From: Lachnospiraceae bacterium
GTDB taxonomy: Bacteria; Bacillota; Clostridia; Lachnospirales; Lachnospiraceae
Direction: 5' to 3'
Length of the DNA stretch: 64,000 bases
Assembly (NCBI GenBank): GCA_017542245.1
Contig: JAFXXN010000179.1
Coordinates: forward strand, 81,592 to 145,591
Below, piece after piece: positions 37,380-46,954 of this stretch. The stretch's first letter is position 1, and each line of letters begins with the position of its first letter. Both the position numbers and the translations under genes were made by a program. Below the pieces are notes generated by a model. The model worked only from the letters and a program-made list of their open reading frames with translations. It was not told the origin of the DNA and did not search any database.

Positions 37380-37453
37380 TTATATTTATTCTCAAAAATG
37401 ATGAAAGACAACTTAATTAAAGTTCTTAATAAAGAGGATTTATGATTATATTA
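37329..37453 (+). repeat. Imperfect tandem duplication of the DUF523 gene end
   Basis: 37329-37387 and 37395-37453 align over about 59 nt with a 66-nt offset and roughly 80% identity. Both read in the same frame: KMLKDNGIKVVDLEDL and KMMKDNLIKVLNKEDL, each followed by a TTTRTGATTATA sequence. In copy one this is the stop (TTGTGA); in copy two it became the ATG start of the next gene. Confidence 0.8.
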
Positions 37454-37975
37454 ATAGGTGGAAGTTCTCATGTAGGCAAGACATTACTTGCTCAGAAGCT
37501 GCTTGAAAAACTAAAAATGCCGTATCTGTCTCTTGATCATCTGAAAATGATGTTCATCCGAGGCCATCTTACAGACCTGACAGTTGAGGATGATTATGAG
37601 ATGCGGTACTATCTGTGGCCTTATGCTGCTGAACTAATTAAAACAGCCATTGAAAACAACCAGAATATGATTGTCGAAGGCTGCTATATACCCTCTGAAT
37701 GGGGAGAACAGTTTGATGACACATATTTAAAAGACATCAAATGCTTCTTTATAACTATGTCCGAAGAATACTTAAGAAAAAATTCTGATAGTGTTCTGAA
37801 GTACGGTAATGTTATCGAAAGAAGACTCGAGGATGAGATAGACCTGGACCGTCTGATAAACTGCAGTAAGGAATTTAAAGAAGAGGCTGAGAAATTCAAT
37901 ATCCCTGTTATCGAAATAACGGACAGATATGATATTGAGGAAATAGTTGATAAAGCACTGGAAATAATAAAATAA
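37442..37975 (+). CDS. P-loop kinase-like protein
   Basis: 177 residues. Walker A GGSSHVGKT (6-14) at the very N-terminus, a nucleoside/adenylate kinase-like SLDHLKMMF segment, and a lid-type stretch rich in Arg/Asp (NVIERRLEDEIDLDRLI). It resembles small cytoplasmic kinases of the AAA_33/zeta-toxin-like superfamily. Substrate unknown. The ATG lies at the end of the duplicated DUF523 tail and is preceded by AAGAGGA. Confidence 0.8.
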   Translation: MIILIGGSSHVGKTLLAQKLLEKLKMPYLSLDHLKMMFIRGHLTDLTVEDDYEMRYYLWPYAAELIKTAIENNQNMIVEGCYIPSEWGEQFDDTYLKDIKCFFITMSEEYLRKNSDSVLKYGNVIERRLEDEIDLDRLINCSKEFKEEAEKFNIPVIEITDRYDIEEIVDKALEIIK

Positions 37976-38009: not shown

Positions 38010-40247
38010 ATGAATAAAACCAGAGAGGCAGAATGCCGCAAAAAAGCAAAAGACCTTGTATCAAAGATGACACTGACGGAGAAGGTGTACCAGCTTCGTC
38101 ATACTGCACCCGCAATACCCAGATTAGGGCTTGGAGCATATAATTATTGGAACGAAGCACTTCACGGAGTAGCACGTGCCGGAGAAGCTACAGTATTTCC
38201 GCAGGCAATCGGTATGGCAGCTGCATTTGACGAAGAACTGATAGGACTTGTTGCCGATGTAATATCCACAGAAGGCAGGGCAAAGTTTAATGTTCAGAAC
38301 AAATATGGAGATAACGGAATTTATAAAGGACTCACATTCTGGGCTCCCAATATCAATATTTTCAGGGATCCCCGCTGGGGCAGAGGACATGAGACATACG
38401 GCGAAGACCCGTATCTTACCTCACGTCTTGGAGTAAGCTTTGTTAACGGTATCCAGGGGAACGATGAAAATTACATGAAGGCTGCAGCCTGCGCAAAGCA
38501 TTTCGCAGTTCATTCAGGACCCGAAAGTATCCGTCACAGTTTTAATGCAGAGTGTTCAAAACAGGATCTTCGTGAGACATATCTGCCCGCATTTAAGGCT
38601 CTCGTTACAGAGGCAAAAGTTGAAGCTGTCATGGGCGCATACAACAGGACAAACGGTGAAGCATGCTGTGCATCAAAGACCTTGCTTAAAGATATTTTAA
38701 GAGATGAATGGGGATTTGAAGGTCATGTAACTTCTGACTGCTGGGCAATACGTGATATTAACGAAGGACACGGGATTACATCTTCACCCTCAGAATCTGT
38801 AGGTCTCGCTATGACCAACGGATGTGATATCAACTGCGGTAATCTCTACGAATACCTTCTTCAGGCAGTAGGAATGGGATATACCACCGAGGAAAGAATA
38901 GATGAGGCTCTGACAAATGTCCTTACTACCAGATTCAAGCTCGGTATACTTGATACAGATGATAACGGAAACATCATCCCTTACAGCATGGAAAACAGTG
39001 ATGATCCTTATGCATCTATCGATTACAGCCATGTTGATTCATTTACTTCCAAAGAAATAAACTTGAAAATAGCAGAAGAAAGCATAGTTCTTCTTAAAAA
39101 TGAAGGAAATCTTCTTCCTATAGACAAAAACGAAATTACAAAGATAGGCGTTATAGGTCCCAATGCAGACAGCCGTAAGGCTCTTGTCGGAAACTATGAA
39201 GGAACATCTTCGGAATATGTTACAGTACTCGAAGGAATACGCAGGGAAGTTGAAAACAGCGGCACCAGAGTATTTGCATCAGTAGGCTGTGATCTTTATA
39301 GACCTAAGGTTGAACCTTTAGGAGAGCAGTCTGACAGACTTGCGGAAGTTAAGGCAGTATGTGATGTTTCCGATGTGATAATTGCCGTAATGGGACTTGA
39401 TGCATCATTAGAAGGCGAAGAAGGAGATACCGGAAACGCATACGGAAGCGGTGATAAGCCTAACCTGCTTCTTCCCGGACTTCAGCAGGAAGTATTGGAC
39501 ACAATAGCAGCATCAGGCAAGCCTGCAGTTCTCGTAGTTCTTTCGGGAAGTGCACTTGCACTTGACAAAGCTTCTTCAGAATTTAAAGCAGTCATTCAGG
39601 GATGGTATCCAGGTGCTCAGGGCGGAAATGCCATTGCACATGTATTATTTGGAAGAAAGAATCCTGAAGGACATTTACCTGTAACCTTCTACAGTGAGAA
39701 GAATACTCTTCCTGAATTCACGGATTATGCCATGAAGGGCAGAACCTACAGATACATGACAGAAGAGCCTCTGTATCCGTTCGGTTTCGGCTTAAGCTAC
39801 ACTGATTTTGATGAGAAGATATCAGATGTTTCGGTTAACGGCAGCGCAGTTCACTTTAAAGCAGAAGAAGGAATCTCAGACGGAAAAGTTACCGAATGTA
39901 GTGATGCAGTTGCATTTAAACAGGGCTATAAGCTGGATATTACCGTAAAGGTAAGTAATAAAGGCAATAAAGCTGGTACCGCTACTGTACAGGCTTATGT
40001 TGAATCAGGTATTTCAGGAGCTCCCTTAAGACAGCTTAAAGGACTGAAGAAAGTAAGCCTTGAAGCAGGTGAAGAAAAGGATGTCATTATTTCTCTTGAC
40101 GAAAACGCTTTTGGACTTTTTGATGAGAATGGTGAATGGAAGCTCAATTCAGGCAACTATAATGTCTTCATTGGAAATGCACAGCCTGATAAAAGAAGTG
40201 CCGAACTGACAGGAAAGAAATGTGAGAAGATTTCTGTAAAAATATGA
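38010..40247 (+). CDS. GH3-family glycosidase (beta-xylosidase/beta-glucosidase)
   Basis: Cytoplasmic exo-glycosidase releasing monosaccharides from the non-reducing end. 745 residues: TIM barrel with YNYWNEALHGVARAG and ATVFPQAIGMAAAFD, nucleophile Asp243 in HVTSDCWAI, alpha/beta sandwich (~350-560, with KPAVLVVLSGSAL) and the C-terminal fibronectin-like domain (~640-735). The ALHGVAR...VFPQAIGMAA pattern is commonest in GH3 beta-xylosidases and related broad enzymes. Start after AGAGG. Its stop overlaps the start of the reverse transcriptase (ATGA). Confidence 0.94.
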   Translation: MNKTREAECRKKAKDLVSKMTLTEKVYQLRHTAPAIPRLGLGAYNYWNEALHGVARAGEATVFPQAIGMAAAFDEELIGLVADVISTEGRAKFNVQNKYGDNGIYKGLTFWAPNINIFRDPRWGRGHETYGEDPYLTSRLGVSFVNGIQGNDENYMKAAACAKHFAVHSGPESIRHSFNAECSKQDLRETYLPAFKALVTEAKVEAVMGAYNRTNGEACCASKTLLKDILRDEWGFEGHVTSDCWAIRDINEGHGITSSPSESVGLAMTNGCDINCGNLYEYLLQAVGMGYTTEERIDEALTNVLTTRFKLGILDTDDNGNIIPYSMENSDDPYASIDYSHVDSFTSKEINLKIAEESIVLLKNEGNLLPIDKNEITKIGVIGPNADSRKALVGNYEGTSSEYVTVLEGIRREVENSGTRVFASVGCDLYRPKVEPLGEQSDRLAEVKAVCDVSDVIIAVMGLDASLEGEEGDTGNAYGSGDKPNLLLPGLQQEVLDTIAASGKPAVLVVLSGSALALDKASSEFKAVIQGWYPGAQGGNAIAHVLFGRKNPEGHLPVTFYSEKNTLPEFTDYAMKGRTYRYMTEEPLYPFGFGLSYTDFDEKISDVSVNGSAVHFKAEEGISDGKVTECSDAVAFKQGYKLDITVKVSNKGNKAGTATVQAYVESGISGAPLRQLKGLKKVSLEAGEEKDVIISLDENAFGLFDENGEWKLNSGNYNVFIGNAQPDKRSAELTGKKCEKISVKI

Positions 40248-41533
40248 TATGTTTATATGAATATGCATTTGAACCCGAAAAATGGCAAGCATTTTATGAG
40301 GACTACGCCTCGAATGAACATGCTTATAAAGCAGATATAAACAGCTTAAAGCTCTATATAGAAAATGAAAAATATCTCGAAGTATTAAAAAACTACGAGG
40401 ATTCAGGGCAGTTTCCGATACCAAGACTGATCATGCTTAACAAAAAGGGAACAGGAAAGAAAAGAGCTGTATTCTCATTTGAAGAAAATGCTTCATGGCT
40501 TTTAAAATTTTTCGGGTATTATCTGCATATATATGATAATATTTTCAGTGACAATCTGTATTCTTTCAGAAAAGAAAGAAGCGCAAAAAACGCAGTAACA
40601 AAGCTTCTTAAGCAAAAAAATCTCACTGCCATGTACGGAGTGAAACTGGATATTCATGACTATTTTAATTCCGCAGATACTGACATTATATTGGAGAAAC
40701 TAAAGGATACTCTTGATAAAAACGACAGACTGTATGATCTGTTTGAGAATATCCTGAAAAATCCATATGTTTATTATGAATTAGGGAAAACGGATAAGGA
40801 AGATTTGGAACTGGAAGAAATCTATGAGGTAGATCATGGCAAGATAGATTCAGATGAGGTAGATTCTGAGAAATTAATCTCATCCGTTCATAAAGGTATG
40901 ATGGCCGGTAGTCCGCTGTCACCGTTTCTTGCAAATCTGTATCTGAACGATTTGGATGAACATTTAGGCACCACATTAGTTTTTTATGCCAGATACTCCG
41001 ACGATATGATACTGTTCTCAGAAAATGCAGAAACCATAAAAAGAGAGACGGAATATATTGTCAGATATTTAAAAGAAAACGGTCTTGAATTAAACCCCGA
41101 TAAGATTATGTTTATTAATCCGGGAGATACTTTTGAATTCTTAGGATTCTCTTTTGAGCAGGGGAATGTCGATGTAGCGGAAGCTTCTTATGAAAAAATC
41201 AAAAAGAAGCTTCGTAGGAAATCAAGGGCAATACTCAGATGGCGTCTGAAAAAGAATATAGATGCCGAAAAAGCAGCAAGGGTTTACATAAGATACTTTA
41301 ACCGTAAGTTTTTCGAAAATCCGATAAAATCAGAGTTAACTTGGTGCAGATGGTACTTTCCGATAATCACTACTGATGAAAAACTAAAAGAAATAGATCA
41401 TTACATGCAGGAATGTATCCGCTTCATTTTTACCGGAAAACATACGAAACGAAATTACAATATCCGCTATGAACAGATAAAAGAACTCGGATATAGGTCT
41501 TTGGTAAACGAATTCCATAAATTTGCGAACTGA
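40244..41533 (+). CDS. Free-standing reverse transcriptase, translationally coupled to GH3
   Basis: 429 residues forming fingers, palm and a thumb-like C-terminus. Motifs in order: RT1-2 IPRLIMLNKKGTGKKRAVF and NLYSFRKERSAKNAVTKL, RT3 YGVKLDIHDYFNSAD (Asp136), RT4 KGMMAGSPLSPFLANLYLND, RT5 FYARYSDDMILF (Asp253/254, YSDD in place of YADD), RT6-7 LELNPDKIMFINPGDTFEFLGFSF. All three catalytic Asp are present. No endonuclease domain, no retron-type VTG, and SPLSP instead of the DGR-type SQ, so it is closest to group II intron-like or unknown-group RTs. Start ATG overlaps the GH3 stop by 4 bp. No intron RNA, template/variable repeats or msr/msd seen next to it. Role unknown; genome defence or repair are the known roles of such lone RTs. 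Confidence 0.9.
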   Translation: MICLYEYAFEPEKWQAFYEDYASNEHAYKADINSLKLYIENEKYLEVLKNYEDSGQFPIPRLIMLNKKGTGKKRAVFSFEENASWLLKFFGYYLHIYDNIFSDNLYSFRKERSAKNAVTKLLKQKNLTAMYGVKLDIHDYFNSADTDIILEKLKDTLDKNDRLYDLFENILKNPYVYYELGKTDKEDLELEEIYEVDHGKIDSDEVDSEKLISSVHKGMMAGSPLSPFLANLYLNDLDEHLGTTLVFYARYSDDMILFSENAETIKRETEYIVRYLKENGLELNPDKIMFINPGDTFEFLGFSFEQGNVDVAEASYEKIKKKLRRKSRAILRWRLKKNIDAEKAARVYIRYFNRKFFENPIKSELTWCRWYFPIITTDEKLKEIDHYMQECIRFIFTGKHTKRNYNIRYEQIKELGYRSLVNEFHKFAN

Positions 41534-41585
41534 AACATATTATGAACTTTAAAAATTTTTATATCATTAACGTAGATTTTTCTTT

Positions 41586-41682
41586 TTAAGCCTTCCCTTT
41601 CAGGGGATTATCTCTACCACGAAGTGGTTGAGATGCCTCATTGGCGAAGTGAAAGTGGCTGCAAAGTAGCCGGATGAGGTGG
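41586..41682. repeat. Interspersed repeat family A, complete copy 3
   Basis: TTAAGCCTTCCC start, hairpin ATCTCTACCAC/GTGGTTGAGAT and AGTAGCCGGATGAGGTG tail, as in copy 1, with differences mainly in the segment after GCGAAGTGAAAG, where the outer arm is degraded. About 50 nt after the reverse transcriptase stop. With the promoter below, it accounts for most of the 315-bp gap 41534-41848. Confidence 0.85.
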
Positions 41683-41714
41683 ATTAAATCGAACGTCTTA
41701 TCTTGAAATATTTC

Positions 41715-41743
41715 TTGACGAAAATTCGGTATTGAAATATAAT
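41715..41743 (+). promoter_or_regulatory. Promoter of the 41849 gene
   Basis: TTGACG (41715-41720), 17 nt, TATAAT (41738-41743); leader about 100 nt. Confidence 0.65.
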
Positions 41744-41848
41744 CATATAAGATGCAACGAAGCAATACATGGCATCAATTTGGGGCAAAGCAGAGATTTG
41801 ACCAACATAAAATATTTTGGGGACAAAACAGGTTAGAGGAGGTATAAT

Positions 41849-42454
41849 ATGGGGTTATTTGATTCGTTCTTAAAACAGGTTAAAAGAGAAGTAGAACGTG
41901 ATGTTACAAGAAATGCTGCAGATGCAGTAGCTTCTTCAATTTCAAATGCTTTTAACCAGAAAGTAAATGATGCTGTCAGCCAGCAGAACACACACGTTAA
42001 CGGTGTTCAGGCACCTTCAAATGACAGGTACCAGGGATTTGTTGTACCGAATAATACACAAAACGGAGGATATACTCCTACAGAACCGGTATATGAAGAA
42101 GATGGTCCCGTTATAATTGACGGCATAGACTACGCTCAGATATATAACTGCGATCTTAATCATTTCAGAACTATACTTAAGGAAAGCTTCCCGGAGATGA
42201 CCCTTCGCGAAGATGTACCGCTTAGAGATATTATTCCCGGAATCAGTGGTGCATACATGTCTGTATCCTTCCTGCTTTGTGACGGAAATACTCCTAAAGT
42301 TGCTATCCAGATCAGGTATCGTGGACAGGCAACACGCCAAGGTTCAAGACGTCAGTGCCTGCAGCATGGTATAGGATATATAAGCCTTTGGACAAATTAT
42401 AAGAACCAGAAGGAATATATTGAAAAACGTGTTAAGGAAGCATTGTGGAATTAA
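41849..42454 (+). CDS. Unrecognised 201-residue protein
   Basis: Amphipathic N-terminal helix (FLKQVKREVERDVTRNAADAVAS), a Gln/Asn-rich flexible stretch (~40-85), then a compact alpha/beta domain (~90-201: LNHFRTILKESFPEMTLRED, GAYMSVSFLLCDGNTPKVAIQIRYRGQ, RRQCLQHGIGYISLW, EYIEKRVKEAL). No signal or membrane segment. The C-terminal pattern of strands with a conserved-looking hydrophobic/charged alternation could be nuclease-like (PD-(D/E)XK) but I see no clear catalytic set. Strong start: AGAGGAGG. Confidence 0.75.
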   Translation: MGLFDSFLKQVKREVERDVTRNAADAVASSISNAFNQKVNDAVSQQNTHVNGVQAPSNDRYQGFVVPNNTQNGGYTPTEPVYEEDGPVIIDGIDYAQIYNCDLNHFRTILKESFPEMTLREDVPLRDIIPGISGAYMSVSFLLCDGNTPKVAIQIRYRGQATRQGSRRQCLQHGIGYISLWTNYKNQKEYIEKRVKEALWN

Positions 42455-42516
42455 TGTAATAAATGGCTAAAATCAGATATTTATAAAGACACCCTTGCAT
42501 AAGGGAATAAAACAAT

Positions 42517-42663
42517 AAAAAAAGAAGAACGCGTATCTTACGCACCTGTATAGGGTGCAGCATGCTCCAACATTCCTTATAGGGGTTGTGCAGGTAGCCG
42601 GAGCATGTATCACCCGGTAATCAGAGCATTTGCTCTGATTTTAAGTATTTCTTCTTTTTATAT
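42517..42663 (+). ncRNA. Probable structured non-coding RNA, class unknown
   Basis: About 145 nt that fold on themselves. Outer A-rich/T-rich arms close the structure (AAAAAGAAGAA near 42519-42529 with TTCTTCTTTTT 42649-42659). Inside are GCACC/GGTGC (42542-42558), the 8-bp CATGCTCC/GGAGCATG stem (42561-42568 with 42600-42607) and AATCAGAGCA/TGCTCTGATT (42619-42640). A separate terminator follows. No open frame. It does not carry the signatures of tmRNA, RNase P, SRP or 6S RNA that I know. It may be a leader-less 3' UTR product of the 41849 gene or an independent RNA. Confidence 0.5.
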
Positions 42664-42664
42664 G

Positions 42665-42695
42665 GGCTTCAGTTTTCTGAAGCCTAATTTTTTTT
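42665..42695 (+). terminator. Terminator after the structured RNA
   Basis: GGCTTCAG (42665-42672) / CTGAAGCC (42677-42684) with a TTTT loop, then TAA and a run of T. Confidence 0.9.
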
Positions 42696-42846
42696 AAAAG
42701 TAACTTTTGGTGAGTTGCTTTTTTTTATAAAATCTGTTATCCTATCTCATTGTTACAGGAATTGAGCGGTTTGAAGCAGAAAAAATCACCTTTGAACCCT
42801 TGAAAATCCTAAGAAAGAAACATGAAAAAAAGTGAGGTAGAAAAAA

Positions 42847-44022
42847 GTGAAAAAGTTATTTGCATGTATTTTGGTTATCGCAATGATTGCGTCTCTTGCA
42901 GCCTGCGGTAAAAAAGAAGACACCCCTTCGGGTGGAAGCACTGAGCCGACCAAAGCGGCAGAGGCTACAAAGCCTGCTGAAACAACGCCGGAACCCACAG
43001 CAACACCCGAACCTACGGCTACACCTGAGCCTACAGCTACACCGACACCTACTCCCGAGCCTGAAATTGATACAAGCCTTGGAGAACTTGTTGGTACATG
43101 GAGCGAGATTAACAATCTGTTCTCAAGAACACTTATCGTAAATGAAGACGGTTCTATGGAGATCAGATTCCAGGGTGGCGGTGCAGTATATGGATCAGTT
43201 TCCGTTCAGGCAAAGGACGGCAGTGCATATTATGTATTCTCAGATCCGGAAGGAAATCCTATAGCAGAATTCCCCAAGAATATTTCTGGCGATACATTTG
43301 TTCTTAAGACTGCCGAGGATGGAGACATTACTTTCCAGCGTAATGATAATGCAGTCCTTACAGTAGACCTTGAAGCAATAAAAGGTGTGTGGGTTGAAGA
43401 AGAATATGAGACAGGTTGGGATTTTGAAATCCACAGCGACGGTTCATGGGTATCATACAGGAGCGAAGAGGAATGCTCAGGAGATATAGTTATCAAACCT
43501 TACGGAATGGCAGGCATACCTTATGTTATAGAACTTCGTGAATTTACAGGTGATGTTTGGACAACTATCAGCTGGGATTGGAGCACCGGCACAGTAGAGC
43601 GTCTGAATGCAATGGACCTTGGAGATAACGGAAAATGGTACGTTCGCTACGGCGGTTTTGAAGGATTCTCTGAGGGTACTTTCGGAGATGAATACTGCGG
43701 AACTTACCAGGCCGAAAGAGCTGTTATGCAAGTAGACCTTGAAGGAGATAACGCATTTATCTTTACAATCAAATGGGCACAAAATGATACGGAGTGGACT
43801 GAATGGCAATACTGGACAAACTATGATGTAAACAGTAATTCATTCCATTCAAATGGCGGAAACATGAAGTGGTTATGCACATATGATTCATCGGGCGAAG
43901 AACAAAGAGAAGTAATCTCAACTAATGAAGAAGCTGATTTCTCACCTAGCGGAAACCTTATGTTCTGGATCGACCAGACAGGAGATATCGAAGGCGAGAT
44001 GCAGTTCGAAAGAGTTCCGTAA
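42847..44022 (+). CDS. Lipoprotein of unknown function
   Basis: 391 residues starting at GTG (GTGAGGTAG upstream; no nearby ATG). Lipobox SLAAC with Cys20, then a Pro/Thr/Glu linker (~30-75, repeats of TATPEP) and two similar beta-rich halves: LVGTWSEINNLFSRTLIVNEDGSMEI and IKGVWVEEEYETGWDFEIHSDGSWVS, both of the GTW/GVW ... xDGS form seen in lipocalin-like or META-type domains. Surface-exposed. No enzyme motif. Sits alone, between two terminators. Confidence 0.85.
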   Translation: MKKLFACILVIAMIASLAACGKKEDTPSGGSTEPTKAAEATKPAETTPEPTATPEPTATPEPTATPTPTPEPEIDTSLGELVGTWSEINNLFSRTLIVNEDGSMEIRFQGGGAVYGSVSVQAKDGSAYYVFSDPEGNPIAEFPKNISGDTFVLKTAEDGDITFQRNDNAVLTVDLEAIKGVWVEEEYETGWDFEIHSDGSWVSYRSEEECSGDIVIKPYGMAGIPYVIELREFTGDVWTTISWDWSTGTVERLNAMDLGDNGKWYVRYGGFEGFSEGTFGDEYCGTYQAERAVMQVDLEGDNAFIFTIKWAQNDTEWTEWQYWTNYDVNSNSFHSNGGNMKWLCTYDSSGEEQREVISTNEEADFSPSGNLMFWIDQTGDIEGEMQFERVP

Positions 44023-44043
44023 AGAATATTTTTACATATGCAC

Positions 44044-44087
44044 CCCGGTTAAGTTATAATAACTTGACCGGGACCTTTTTTATTTTT
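44044..44087 (+). terminator. Terminator after the lipoprotein gene
   Basis: CCCGGTTAAGTTAT (44044-44057) pairs with ATAACTTGACCGGG (44059-44072), allowing one mismatch, then ACC and a T tract. Confidence 0.85.
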
Positions 44088-44093
44088 TCCTTC

Positions 44094-44122
44094 TTGCCTA
44101 AAGTGAAAAAAATTGATATAAT
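44094..44122 (+). promoter_or_regulatory. Promoter of the hybrid kinase gene
   Basis: TTGCCT (44094-44099), 17 nt, TATAAT (44117-44122) with TGA extended -10. Confidence 0.65.
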
Positions 44123-44170
44123 GATAAGATGCAGTATTATTGTATTGATTTTTGAAATGAGGAATCTTTA

Positions 44171-46954
44171 ATGGATAAAAATGTAAAAAAAGGTTTTTCC
44201 GAAATTATAGCAACATCTGTCAAGGTGCTTATGGGAGTTTTACTTACCTTTAACATCTTTGTTCTTATATATTTCGGAATAATAGACAGAGCGGACGTTT
44301 GGGAAAACGAACCCATAAGCTTTATTGAAAACTGGATCGTTACAGACAGCAAGGGAAATCAATTTACCACAGGCCGAAATTTCGTATCAGATGAAGAAAT
44401 TCATGAAGAGTTTACCATAGTTTCGACTCTTGCACAGGATATAGCTGATAATGAATATCTTTTCTTCCTTACACGTACCGATATAGCAGTATATATCAAC
44501 GGCGAGTTAAGAAAAGATTTTATAGAGGACAGAGATGTAAACATTCCCGGCGGCCTTGTAACAAAGTTTTATATGACCGTGCCTTTAAAAGAATCAGATG
44601 CCGGAGCCGAGGTAAAAATGGTAAGACCCCTGGCCTTAAAAGACGAGGAGCTTGTTCCTGAAACATTTATCGGTACACGTTCCGCAGCGTTCAGTTACAT
44701 GTTACATAACGGAGGCCTCTCATTCTTCCTTGCAGCTATTGTACTTATCTTTTCCATAGTTGTTATTATCGTGAGCGTAGTGCTGAAATTATGGTATAAA
44801 ATAAAGATAAATATGTTGTACGGCGCACTCGGTATACTCATTACAGCGTCATGGCTGATAACTGATTCATTTGTATGCCCGTTTGTTTTCAGAGTATATT
44901 ATGTTCATGGTCTGCTGAATTATATGTTCGGACTCATGATCCCATTTGCACTTGCACTTTATCTGAATGCTATACAAGGCGAAAGATATAAAAAGAGTGT
45001 ATCTGCGCTGCTTATTTTAGCAAGCTTTAACGCTGTTGTATGGCCGTTCCTTCATTTCACAGGTATTGTTCCTTTTTATAATATCCGTTCATTTGCAAAT
45101 GGTATCCTTGCCATTATTACCGTGCTTGCATTATATGTTGTTATCAAGGATGCAATTAAAGGGAATGTCAGTGAATATCGCTATACATTCTTGGGATTTC
45201 TCGGATTTTTAATATGTTGTACCATCGAGCTGGTCATAGTTCTTACGATAAAGACAACCAATGCAACCCTGCCTATGGTAATAGGACTTGGAGTGCTTCT
45301 GACATTTATCGTTATGCAGCAGGTAAAAGACCTAAGAAAGATCAATCAAGAAAAACAGCATGCTATTGATATTTCCGAGGCAAAGACGAGATTCCTTGCA
45401 AGCATGTCTCATGAGATAAGAACTCCTATCAACGCAATTCTCGGTATGAATGAAATGATATTAAGAGAAAACAAAGATAAGGTTATAGGAGAATATTCAA
45501 GAAGCATCAAGACATCCGGAAAAATGCTTCTTATGCTGGTAAACGATGTACTTGATTTTTCAAAGATTGAAGCCGGAAAACTCGAGATAAACGAGAACCG
45601 TTTCCGCATGTCGGATATGCTGCATGACGTAATTTCGCTCGTTAAGGAAAGAGCCGATGAAAAGTCTCTCGAAATTAAGACCGAGATCAACGGAGAAATC
45701 CCTAACGAATTGATTAGTGATGAGTTCAGAATCAGGCAGATACTTGTAAATCTGATAAATAATGCAGTAAAGTACACCGAGAAAGGTACTGTTACACTTA
45801 AACTCGGAGGCTCGTATACCGATGACGGATATGAACTTGGAATATATGTTAAAGATACAGGAAAAGGAATCCGTAAGGAAGATCAGAAAAATCTGTTTGA
45901 CGCATTTTCAAGAGCCGATGCTAAAGCCAATGTGAATATAGAAGGAACAGGATTGGGACTTGCTATAGTAAAGAGCATTGTCGATTCCATGAACGGAACA
46001 CTCGGTTTAGAAAGTGAATACGGATCAGGCTCTGAATTTTGGGTTAAGATTCCGGTTAAATATCTGGGTAAAGCTCTGCTTAAAAAAGATTTCATGGAGG
46101 AAAGCTCTCATTATGAAGCTACTATCGAAAACTGCAGTTTCACGGCACCTGCTGCGAAAATACTTGCAGTTGACGATAACCAGTCAAATCTTACTATCGT
46201 AAAACTCTTTCTTAAGAGAACAGGGATCAAGCCCGATCTTTGCAGTAACGGTAAGCGTGCTATAGAACTCTGCAGGGAGAAAAAATACGATATCATTTTC
46301 CTTGATCATATGATGCCCCAGCCTGACGGTATAGAGACATTTCATATAATTAGGAGTGACGAGAAATCTCTTAATAAAGATACAAAAACAGTTATTCTTA
46401 CTGCAAATGCATTGGCCGGAAGCCGCCAGATGTATATAAATGAGGGATTTGACGATTATCTTACCAAACCTTTGGATTCGGCTATGCTGGAACAGACGGT
46501 TTTAAACATGCTTCCAAAAGAAAAGGTGGAATTGCTTTCACCTTTGGCTGACAGGAGATCAGAAGAAAAAGATGAGGTAATTGAATTCAATCCGGGCGAA
46601 ATGCCTTCTGTAAAGGAAAGACTTACAGCAATAAAGGGGCTTGATTATGAGACAGCTTTGGGATATTGCGGCGGTGACGAAGAAATGCTTGAGGAAATAA
46701 TTACCGATGTTGCTGCTGACGGTCCTAAACGTGTAGCCAGAATGAAGAAAAATCTTGAGGAAAAAGATATAAAAGCTTACAGGATAGAAGCTCACACTGT
46801 AAAAAGCACTGTGGCTACCATAGGCATGAAAGAATTAAGTGAGAGAGCAAAGAAACATGAATATGCTGCAAGAGACAATGATCTGGATTTTATATACAGT
46901 GATTCGGAGGACTTTATAAAAGAATATTTAGAGGTGTGTAAGAAACTGATATGA
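44171..46954 (+). CDS. Hybrid sensor histidine kinase with multi-helix membrane sensor
   Basis: 927 residues. TM1 (~13-33), an extracellular beta domain (~45-170), then about seven helices (~175-370), a layout like 7TMR-DISM sensors. Cytoplasmic part: HisKA with His414 (FLASMSHEIRTPINAILGM), HATPase (NLINNAVKYTEKG, GTGLGLAIVKSIV), receiver with Asp712 (DIIFLDHMMPQPDG) and Hpt with His875 (EAHTVKSTVATIGM). A complete His-Asp-His relay in one chain, but no output regulator next to it. Start after GAGGAA. Overlaps the downstream gene by 4 bp. Confidence 0.94.
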   Translation: MDKNVKKGFSEIIATSVKVLMGVLLTFNIFVLIYFGIIDRADVWENEPISFIENWIVTDSKGNQFTTGRNFVSDEEIHEEFTIVSTLAQDIADNEYLFFLTRTDIAVYINGELRKDFIEDRDVNIPGGLVTKFYMTVPLKESDAGAEVKMVRPLALKDEELVPETFIGTRSAAFSYMLHNGGLSFFLAAIVLIFSIVVIIVSVVLKLWYKIKINMLYGALGILITASWLITDSFVCPFVFRVYYVHGLLNYMFGLMIPFALALYLNAIQGERYKKSVSALLILASFNAVVWPFLHFTGIVPFYNIRSFANGILAIITVLALYVVIKDAIKGNVSEYRYTFLGFLGFLICCTIELVIVLTIKTTNATLPMVIGLGVLLTFIVMQQVKDLRKINQEKQHAIDISEAKTRFLASMSHEIRTPINAILGMNEMILRENKDKVIGEYSRSIKTSGKMLLMLVNDVLDFSKIEAGKLEINENRFRMSDMLHDVISLVKERADEKSLEIKTEINGEIPNELISDEFRIRQILVNLINNAVKYTEKGTVTLKLGGSYTDDGYELGIYVKDTGKGIRKEDQKNLFDAFSRADAKANVNIEGTGLGLAIVKSIVDSMNGTLGLESEYGSGSEFWVKIPVKYLGKALLKKDFMEESSHYEATIENCSFTAPAAKILAVDDNQSNLTIVKLFLKRTGIKPDLCSNGKRAIELCREKKYDIIFLDHMMPQPDGIETFHIIRSDEKSLNKDTKTVILTANALAGSRQMYINEGFDDYLTKPLDSAMLEQTVLNMLPKEKVELLSPLADRRSEEKDEVIEFNPGEMPSVKERLTAIKGLDYETALGYCGGDEEMLEEIITDVAADGPKRVARMKKNLEEKDIKAYRIEAHTVKSTVATIGMKELSERAKKHEYAARDNDLDFIYSDSEDFIKEYLEVCKKLI

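Follow-up and report, generated by a model that had tools for sequence, protein, structure and literature searches.

Why does a reverse transcriptase (RT) gene follow, and overlap, a GH3 glycoside hydrolase gene in a Lachnospiraceae genome, and what might the enzyme do there? An initial annotation raised this question for a 64,000-nucleotide stretch of Lachnospiraceae bacterium DNA (assembly GCA_017542245.1, contig JAFXXN010000179.1, positions 81,592 to 145,591), which we call the window and whose numbering is used below. Our analysis points away from the glycosidase and toward the sequence downstream of the RT. We consider it probable that the RT, an Rfam RT-5 RNA and a restriction-endonuclease-like protein form a three-part UG26 module in which the RT copies the RNA, with anti-phage defense as the most likely purpose. 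The genes and the RNA in question are as follows.

38010..40247, + strand: GH3 glycoside hydrolase gene (745 amino acids, aa), with GH3 N, GH3 C and Fn3-like domains.
40244..41533, + strand: UG26 reverse transcriptase gene (429 aa; RVT_1 at E 3.7e-24; PADLOC RT_UG26 at E 3.4e-147).
41849..42454, + strand: partner protein gene (201 aa), with a predicted long helix and disorder followed by a C-terminal restriction-endonuclease-like domain.
42540..42651, + strand: Rfam RT-5 RNA (RF03026), a covariance-model match.

Profile searches place the window RT clearly in group UG26 of the UG/Abi (DRT) enzymes. RT_UG26 matched at 488 bits and the second-best PADLOC model at 124; after UG26, the best UG/Drt groups were UG4, UG27, Drt9 and UG17, at 97 to 90 bits, with scores of 90 bits for UG17, 93 for DRT9 and 69 for DRT2 on the models of the groups compared below. 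The initial annotation rightly saw a bacterial RT of UG/Abi type with a domesticated look; the group II maturase and retron models remain below their cut-offs. Its suggestion of a new RT class is ruled out by the UG26 match. Six NCBIfam models (group II maturase, retron and Drt ones) matched the RT, all under their own cut-offs. A retron was rejected at 59 bits for the St85 family RT model against a cut-off of 235, and a diversity-generating retroelement was rejected because direct repeats in 40000-44200 reach no more than 32 nt (72 percent), more distant repeats not having been sought. The YSDD (residues 251-254) and SPLSP (223-227) motifs picked out by the annotation are both present in the protein. 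In an alignment of 35 of the 40 RT rows (L008, L078, L090, L091 and L100 were left out), Asp136, Tyr251, Asp253 and Asp254 are invariant (35/35), indicating an intact active site, and Ser252 is found in 34 of the 35, so YSDD is normal for this RT group.

A structured RNA lies beside this enzyme. RF03026 matched over all 104 model positions at 77.5 bits (gathering score 45.7; E 1.7e-13; Infernal), at a site 1 kb 3' of the RT gene and 85 nt past the stop of the 201-aa open reading frame (ORF), and was the sole Rfam match over gathering score in the window. The name RT-5 suggests that the RNA was first seen near RT genes. According to the annotation, the RT has neither intron RNA nor a template repeat nor an msr/msd-like RNA next to it; intron RNA is indeed absent, but the structured RT-5 RNA is there. 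Together with 28 bases of 5' and 17 bases of 3' flank, the matched stretch folds 5.7 standard deviations (SD) below dinucleotide shuffles, none of 200 being as good.

Several comparisons support the association of RT and RNA. First, a search of genome contigs returned eight relatives (seven Lachnospiraceae and one Bacteroidales), and six of the eight loci carry RT-5. At L005, RT-5 lies 11 kb downstream on the RT contig, again after a partner gene; at L007, no RT-5 was found in the genome and the contig stops 281 bases past the RT. Second, a scan of 250 genomes of the window's family, with stricter filters under which weak matches are lost, found RT-5 in 29 at E <= 0.001 (31 copies; 28 of these genomes exceeded the cut-off). 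UG26 matches scoring 266 bits or more, a line set in the gap between 266 bits and the next RT at 140, occurred in 30 of the same genomes, namely all 29 with RT-5 plus one other, G193. All 29 RT-5 genomes therefore have a UG26 RT, and 29 of 30 UG26 genomes have RT-5; two genomes contain two RTs and two RT-5 RNAs each. Third, an RT is present in 37/37 RNA loci, 30 of which were fetched through the RNA and seven through the RT (the window and six others). The partner protein, sought with its own profile, is present in 31 of the 37, including L095, where it follows the RNA, and only three of these finds are independent because the profile was built from 28 of the 31. Finally, RT and RNA distances correlate (r 0.67 over 30 rows; r 0.64 over 26 rows without the window's clade; 0/5000 in each case), a result equally expected from shared descent alone.

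In G193 (L100:3626-7468, + strand) a 1281-aa open frame ends in the UG26-like RT, and its N-terminal part appears radical-SAM-like by eye.

This tracking of UG26 by RT-5 at genome level (29/29; 29/30) bears on the idea that the protein is a domesticated group II intron-encoded RT with no RNA partner of its own, RT-5 merely neighboring. The fold of the RT could be read that way: with an AlphaFold2 model (mean predicted local distance difference test score, pLDDT, 75.5; built from 8 sequences), a fold search returned group II intron RTs first (6ar3, E 1e-13) and then G2L4, DRT9 and DRT2, and the RT scores 119 bits on the NCBIfam model for group II maturases. That score is far under the cut-off of 300, however, and no group II intron RNA was found over gathering score in the window or up to E 1 in 40200-43500 (Rfam). 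A group II intron protein was rejected on these grounds, and we regard the domesticated-intron explanation as highly improbable. The appearance of DRT9 and DRT2 among the best fold matches was counted in support of the module.

The Rfam consensus for RT-5 contains two stem regions, to which this analysis adds a closing stem (H1), a hairpin (Ha) and a pseudoknot. Folded alone, the window RNA forms H1, Ha, H2 and H3, and the complete molecule probably extends from about 42519 to 42659.

42519..42529, + strand: 5' arm of closing stem H1, which pairs with 42649-42659 and lies beyond the Rfam-matched stretch.
42531..42543, + strand: hairpin Ha (GCGUA-UCU-UACGC), absent from the Rfam consensus structure.
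42544..42549, + strand: pseudoknot strand 1 (ACCUGU), which pairs with 42590-42595.
42590..42595, + strand: pseudoknot strand 2 (GCAGGU), within the H2 loop.
42619..42640, + strand: hairpin H3 (AAUCAGAGC-AUUU-GCUCUGAUU), directly 5' of the candidate template.
42641..42648, + strand: single-stranded loop UUAAGUAU between H3 and H1, a candidate template for complementary DNA (cDNA).
42649..42659, + strand: 3' arm of closing stem H1, from covariation and fold.
42663..42686, + strand: intrinsic-terminator-like hairpin with a U run, after the RNA, from a sequence scan.

We aligned 33 of the 37 RNAs with their flanks, leaving out L002, L082, L083 and L091, which have long insertions. In permutation tests that exchanged arms among sequences and left shared ancestry in place, H1 formed 9.61 of 10 pairs with its own arms and 8.05 with swapped arms (0/5000 as good), Ha formed 3.67 of 5 pairs with its own and 2.78 with swapped arms (0/5000; the value is lowered by alignment gaps), and the pseudoknot formed 6/6 pairs in 33/33 sequences with both sides changing (0/5000 as good). 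From the same alignment RNAalifold predicted 19 pairs, all in Ha and H2, 16 of them with double-sided changes; it predicted neither H1 nor H3 in these 33 sequences, the arms of both being out of register in the alignment. H3 has 3 to 12 unbroken pairs (median 8). Of the RNAs with insertions, L002:8023-8217 (+ strand) carries a long hairpin-like one in the H2 loop, and those of L082, L083 and L091 have inserts likewise.

Promoter positions help to place the RNA's 5' end. In eight of the 37 loci, chosen for the best site near the RNA or for having no partner upstream, we compared promoter-like sites with the 10-nt H1 arm. Sites matching 10 to 12 of 12 positions end 3-10 nt before the arm in L084, L090, L092, L094 and L095, so in these five loci the RNA probably begins near it; the sites of L074, L077 and L099 are weaker (7-9 of 12).

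The usual cassette order is partner protein, RNA and RT on one strand. Among the 31 loci with the RNA before the RT, 29 have 19-235 nt between the RNA end and the RT start, the latter set by rule of thumb; the exceptions are L095 (605 nt, with the partner gene between RNA and RT) and L090, where the two overlap by the start chosen. Such close upstream placement is what would be seen if RT-5 were a cis-acting leader of the RT gene, neither template nor scaffold. The window's own clade, where the RNA follows the RT at a distance of 0.7 to about 11 kb, speaks against a leader, and so does the partner gene that intervenes in L095. The closed, pseudoknotted fold and a promoter of its own in some loci likewise suit a discrete RNA, and we give the leader explanation only a slim chance.

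The seven RT-first rows of the RT tree make up one clade (100/100), in which the RT precedes the protein-RNA pair; the partner gene follows it at distances from roughly 0.1 kb (L002) up to roughly 10 kb (L005). By this comparison the window's RT-first arrangement is derived: its partner and RNA seem to have a promoter of their own, with the RT split off behind GH3. Between the RT and the partner gene we noted two features.

41587..41681, no strand assigned: dispersed repeat of about 95 nt, outside the module.
41715..41743, + strand: promoter-like site TTGACG-17-TATAAT ahead of the partner gene (11 of 12).

A site matching 10-11 of 12 positions is found 53-106 nt before the partner start in all six loci compared (the window, L002, L003, L004, L006 and L008), a count made with no shuffle control; in a scan of the region, promoter-like sites overall were not commoner than in shuffles (10 vs 13.4). 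Queried against its own genome, the 315-base interval 41534-41848 gave 31 matches of varying length, the query included, the longest span being about 41587-41681. A structure just 3' of the RT was rejected as a candidate RNA, as it is this dispersed repeat and folds only 1.64 SD below shuffles (18/200 as good).

These relatives also answer the question of the glycosidase. The 4-bp overlap (ATGA) between the end of GH3 and the start of the RT is borne out by both ORFs. The coupling read into it is not kept: in L002, L003, L004, L005 and L007, the five relatives with readable upstream sequence, the ORF directly before the RT is something other than GH3 (judged by eye from sequence), whereas L006 and L008 start too near the RT for the preceding gene to be judged. 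GH3 is present in L003, L004 and L007, but farther upstream of the RT. Because another gene precedes the RT in 5/5 readable relatives, we dropped a meaningful RT-GH3 coupling, and GH3 is best read as an incidental neighbor that is not part of the module. Just ahead of GH3 in the window is an ORF (37442-37975, + strand) that looks zeta-toxin-like or AAA-like from weak Pfam matches, and an ORF similar by eye lies near the GH3 gene of L004.

What is the third component? PADLOC RTasCOG2852 matched the window protein weakly, as it did six of seven partner members (best E 3.9e-6), and Pfam gave no match for the window protein, hence no SLATT domain. The partner was modeled from seven sequences with a mean pLDDT of 58, residues 1-99 falling below 50, and the C-terminal domain of the model is alpha-beta. 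Below E 0.001 Foldseek returned a single match, BstEII (E 1.9e-4; TM-score 0.29, by query length). Further restriction-endonuclease-like folds came only at E 0.05-0.27, among them I-Bth0305I, NGO0050 and another such protein at 0.05-0.17, and were interspersed with unrelated folds, small GTPases for example. By eye, no invariant acidic residue was seen in the 28-member partner alignment, as a PD-(D/E)XK catalytic site would have, and nuclease activity is doubtful for this reason. The partner thus looks, from its model, like a restriction-endonuclease-like fold without conserved catalytic residues. Upstream of the RNA in L088 and L093, the partner domain ends longer, differently built proteins (371 and 223 aa).

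How might the three parts work together? Published work describes class 2 UG RTs as copying noncoding RNA (ncRNA) templates (PMC12632851, PMC13174585). The template of DRT10 is an A-B-A' loop immediately 3' of a stable hairpin, and its priming residue is a C-terminal Ser or Tyr (PMC12632851, PMC13174585, PMC12483538), DRT9 uses a poly-U template and primes with C-terminal tyrosines (PMC12483538), and the DRT2 RNA is described as pseudoknotted (PMC12039810). By eye, H1 closes the RT-5 RNA, the U-rich UUAAGUAU lies between H3 and H1 in the window, and an A-B-A' repeat is visible in some of the RNAs. We propose that the RT would bind the RT-5 RNA, which H1 would close and the pseudoknot would hold in a compact fold, and would copy the U-rich loop directly 3' of H3, probably repeatedly, into repetitive cDNA, by analogy with DRT10 and DRT9. 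Priming would probably come from a hydroxyl in the RT's own C-terminal part, where Tyr409, invariant in 35/35 aligned RTs, is a candidate priming residue. The partner might sense or handle the nucleic acid product, or be the effector. A more specific and rather speculative version resembles telomerase: the RT would re-copy the U/A-rich RT-5 loop into protein-linked tandem-repeat DNA (in the window, for example, TACTTAAA), which the site-less nuclease-fold partner would recognize as a signal.

The outcome would most likely be anti-phage defense, by analogy with DRT2, DRT3, DRT9 and DRT10. The distribution of the module is patchy: 29 of 250 family genomes have it, and the same-genus G134 does not. 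In the RT tree the Bacteroidales RT nests among RTs of the window's family. Outside the family RT-5 looks rare, being found in 1 of 296 genomes of the phylum of L009 (L009's own) and in 2 of 299 genomes of the window's phylum, both of the window's family. Among plasmids, tblastn with the RT hit 833 records, none reaching 60 percent identity (the 10 matches listed at about 23-24 percent), and among phages 21 records, none reaching that level either (15 matches listed, at 23-29 percent); in viral contigs at least two distant RTs were confirmed (27 and 34 percent). UG26 is named among the RTs of cold-seep viruses in one report (PMC10504277), the single paper in our literature search to use the name for an RT.

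The neighboring genes would also fit a housekeeping or regulatory device, in which a DNA signal made by the three parts would serve cell physiology rather than defense. We scanned 88 of 162 neighboring ORFs, picked by hand and with no control set: 66 PADLOC models matched at E <= 1e-10, none of the 25 listed matched more than 3 of the 88 proteins, and the 25 of 109 Pfam families listed are of a metabolic and transport kind. Some loci of the window's clade share neighbors, by eye, such as GH3 and the zeta-like kinase gene. The patchy spread and the absence from G134 argue against a housekeeping role, however, as do the nested Bacteroidales RT and the two genomes with doubled RTs and RNAs, and the studied class 2 relatives are defense systems (PMC12632851, PMC13174585). 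We judge the physiological alternative unlikely and keep defense as the preferred outcome of the UG26 module.

Several observations weigh against the module as proposed. G193 has a UG26-like RT, with no RT-5 found in its genome. Some RTs are damaged or cut (L078 is a fragment at a contig end, L008 is truncated by a contig end and L091 is in two pieces), and the partner was not found in six of the 37 loci (L077, L081, L084, L092, L094 and L099; the L099 locus opens at the start of its contig). Group II intron RTs and G2L4 outrank DRT9 and DRT2 among the fold matches of the RT, and no recurring defense partner appeared among the matches listed for the 88 neighbor proteins. The permutation statistics for the RNA arms carry the shared ancestry noted with them. 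For the template, A-B-A' coevolution was not significant (own 3.30 vs swapped 3.19, 1974/10000 as good; 2588/10000 on the 30 different rows left by dereplication). When letters within A' were shuffled the observed value was reached in 6/3000; this shows order within the U-rich run and no more. A' would also overlap H1 by 2-3 pairs. Because this coevolution did not emerge and A' would run into H1, we treat the loop as a candidate template. The identity of the RT, the presence and structure of the RNA, their near-perfect co-occurrence in the sampled family, the recurring gene order and the covariation are computational observations; from them we infer RNA binding, cDNA synthesis and defense.

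The links of UG26 to the RT-5 RNA and to the partner protein were found in this analysis. Literature searches for RT-5 RNA, RTasCOG2852, and COG2852 with reverse transcriptase returned no mention, although the source papers for the UG groups and RT-5 lay outside that search and the association may partly be in print there. Two orphans, the UG26 RT group and the Rfam RT-5 RNA, are thereby joined with a third protein into one testable module, for which the analysis supplies the probable limits of the RNA and a pseudoknot, along with candidates for the template and the priming residue.

Among the closest known systems, DRT9 and DRT2 share with the UG26 module an RT and a structured ncRNA, but they belong to other RT groups (93 and 69 bits) and are described as RT and ncRNA only. 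DRT10 (UG17; RT, SLATT protein and ncRNA) is tripartite like the module proposed here (PMC12632851). In contrast to DRT10, the UG26 partner is restriction-endonuclease-like rather than SLATT, A-B-A' is not established, and the window RT scores 90 bits on UG17. The DRT10 ncRNA has a large central stem, smaller stem-loops and a template loop 3' of a stable stem-loop (PMC12632851), and RT-5 looks alike by eye. If the UG26 module works as proposed, it could join the bacterial RTs that synthesize repetitive DNA.

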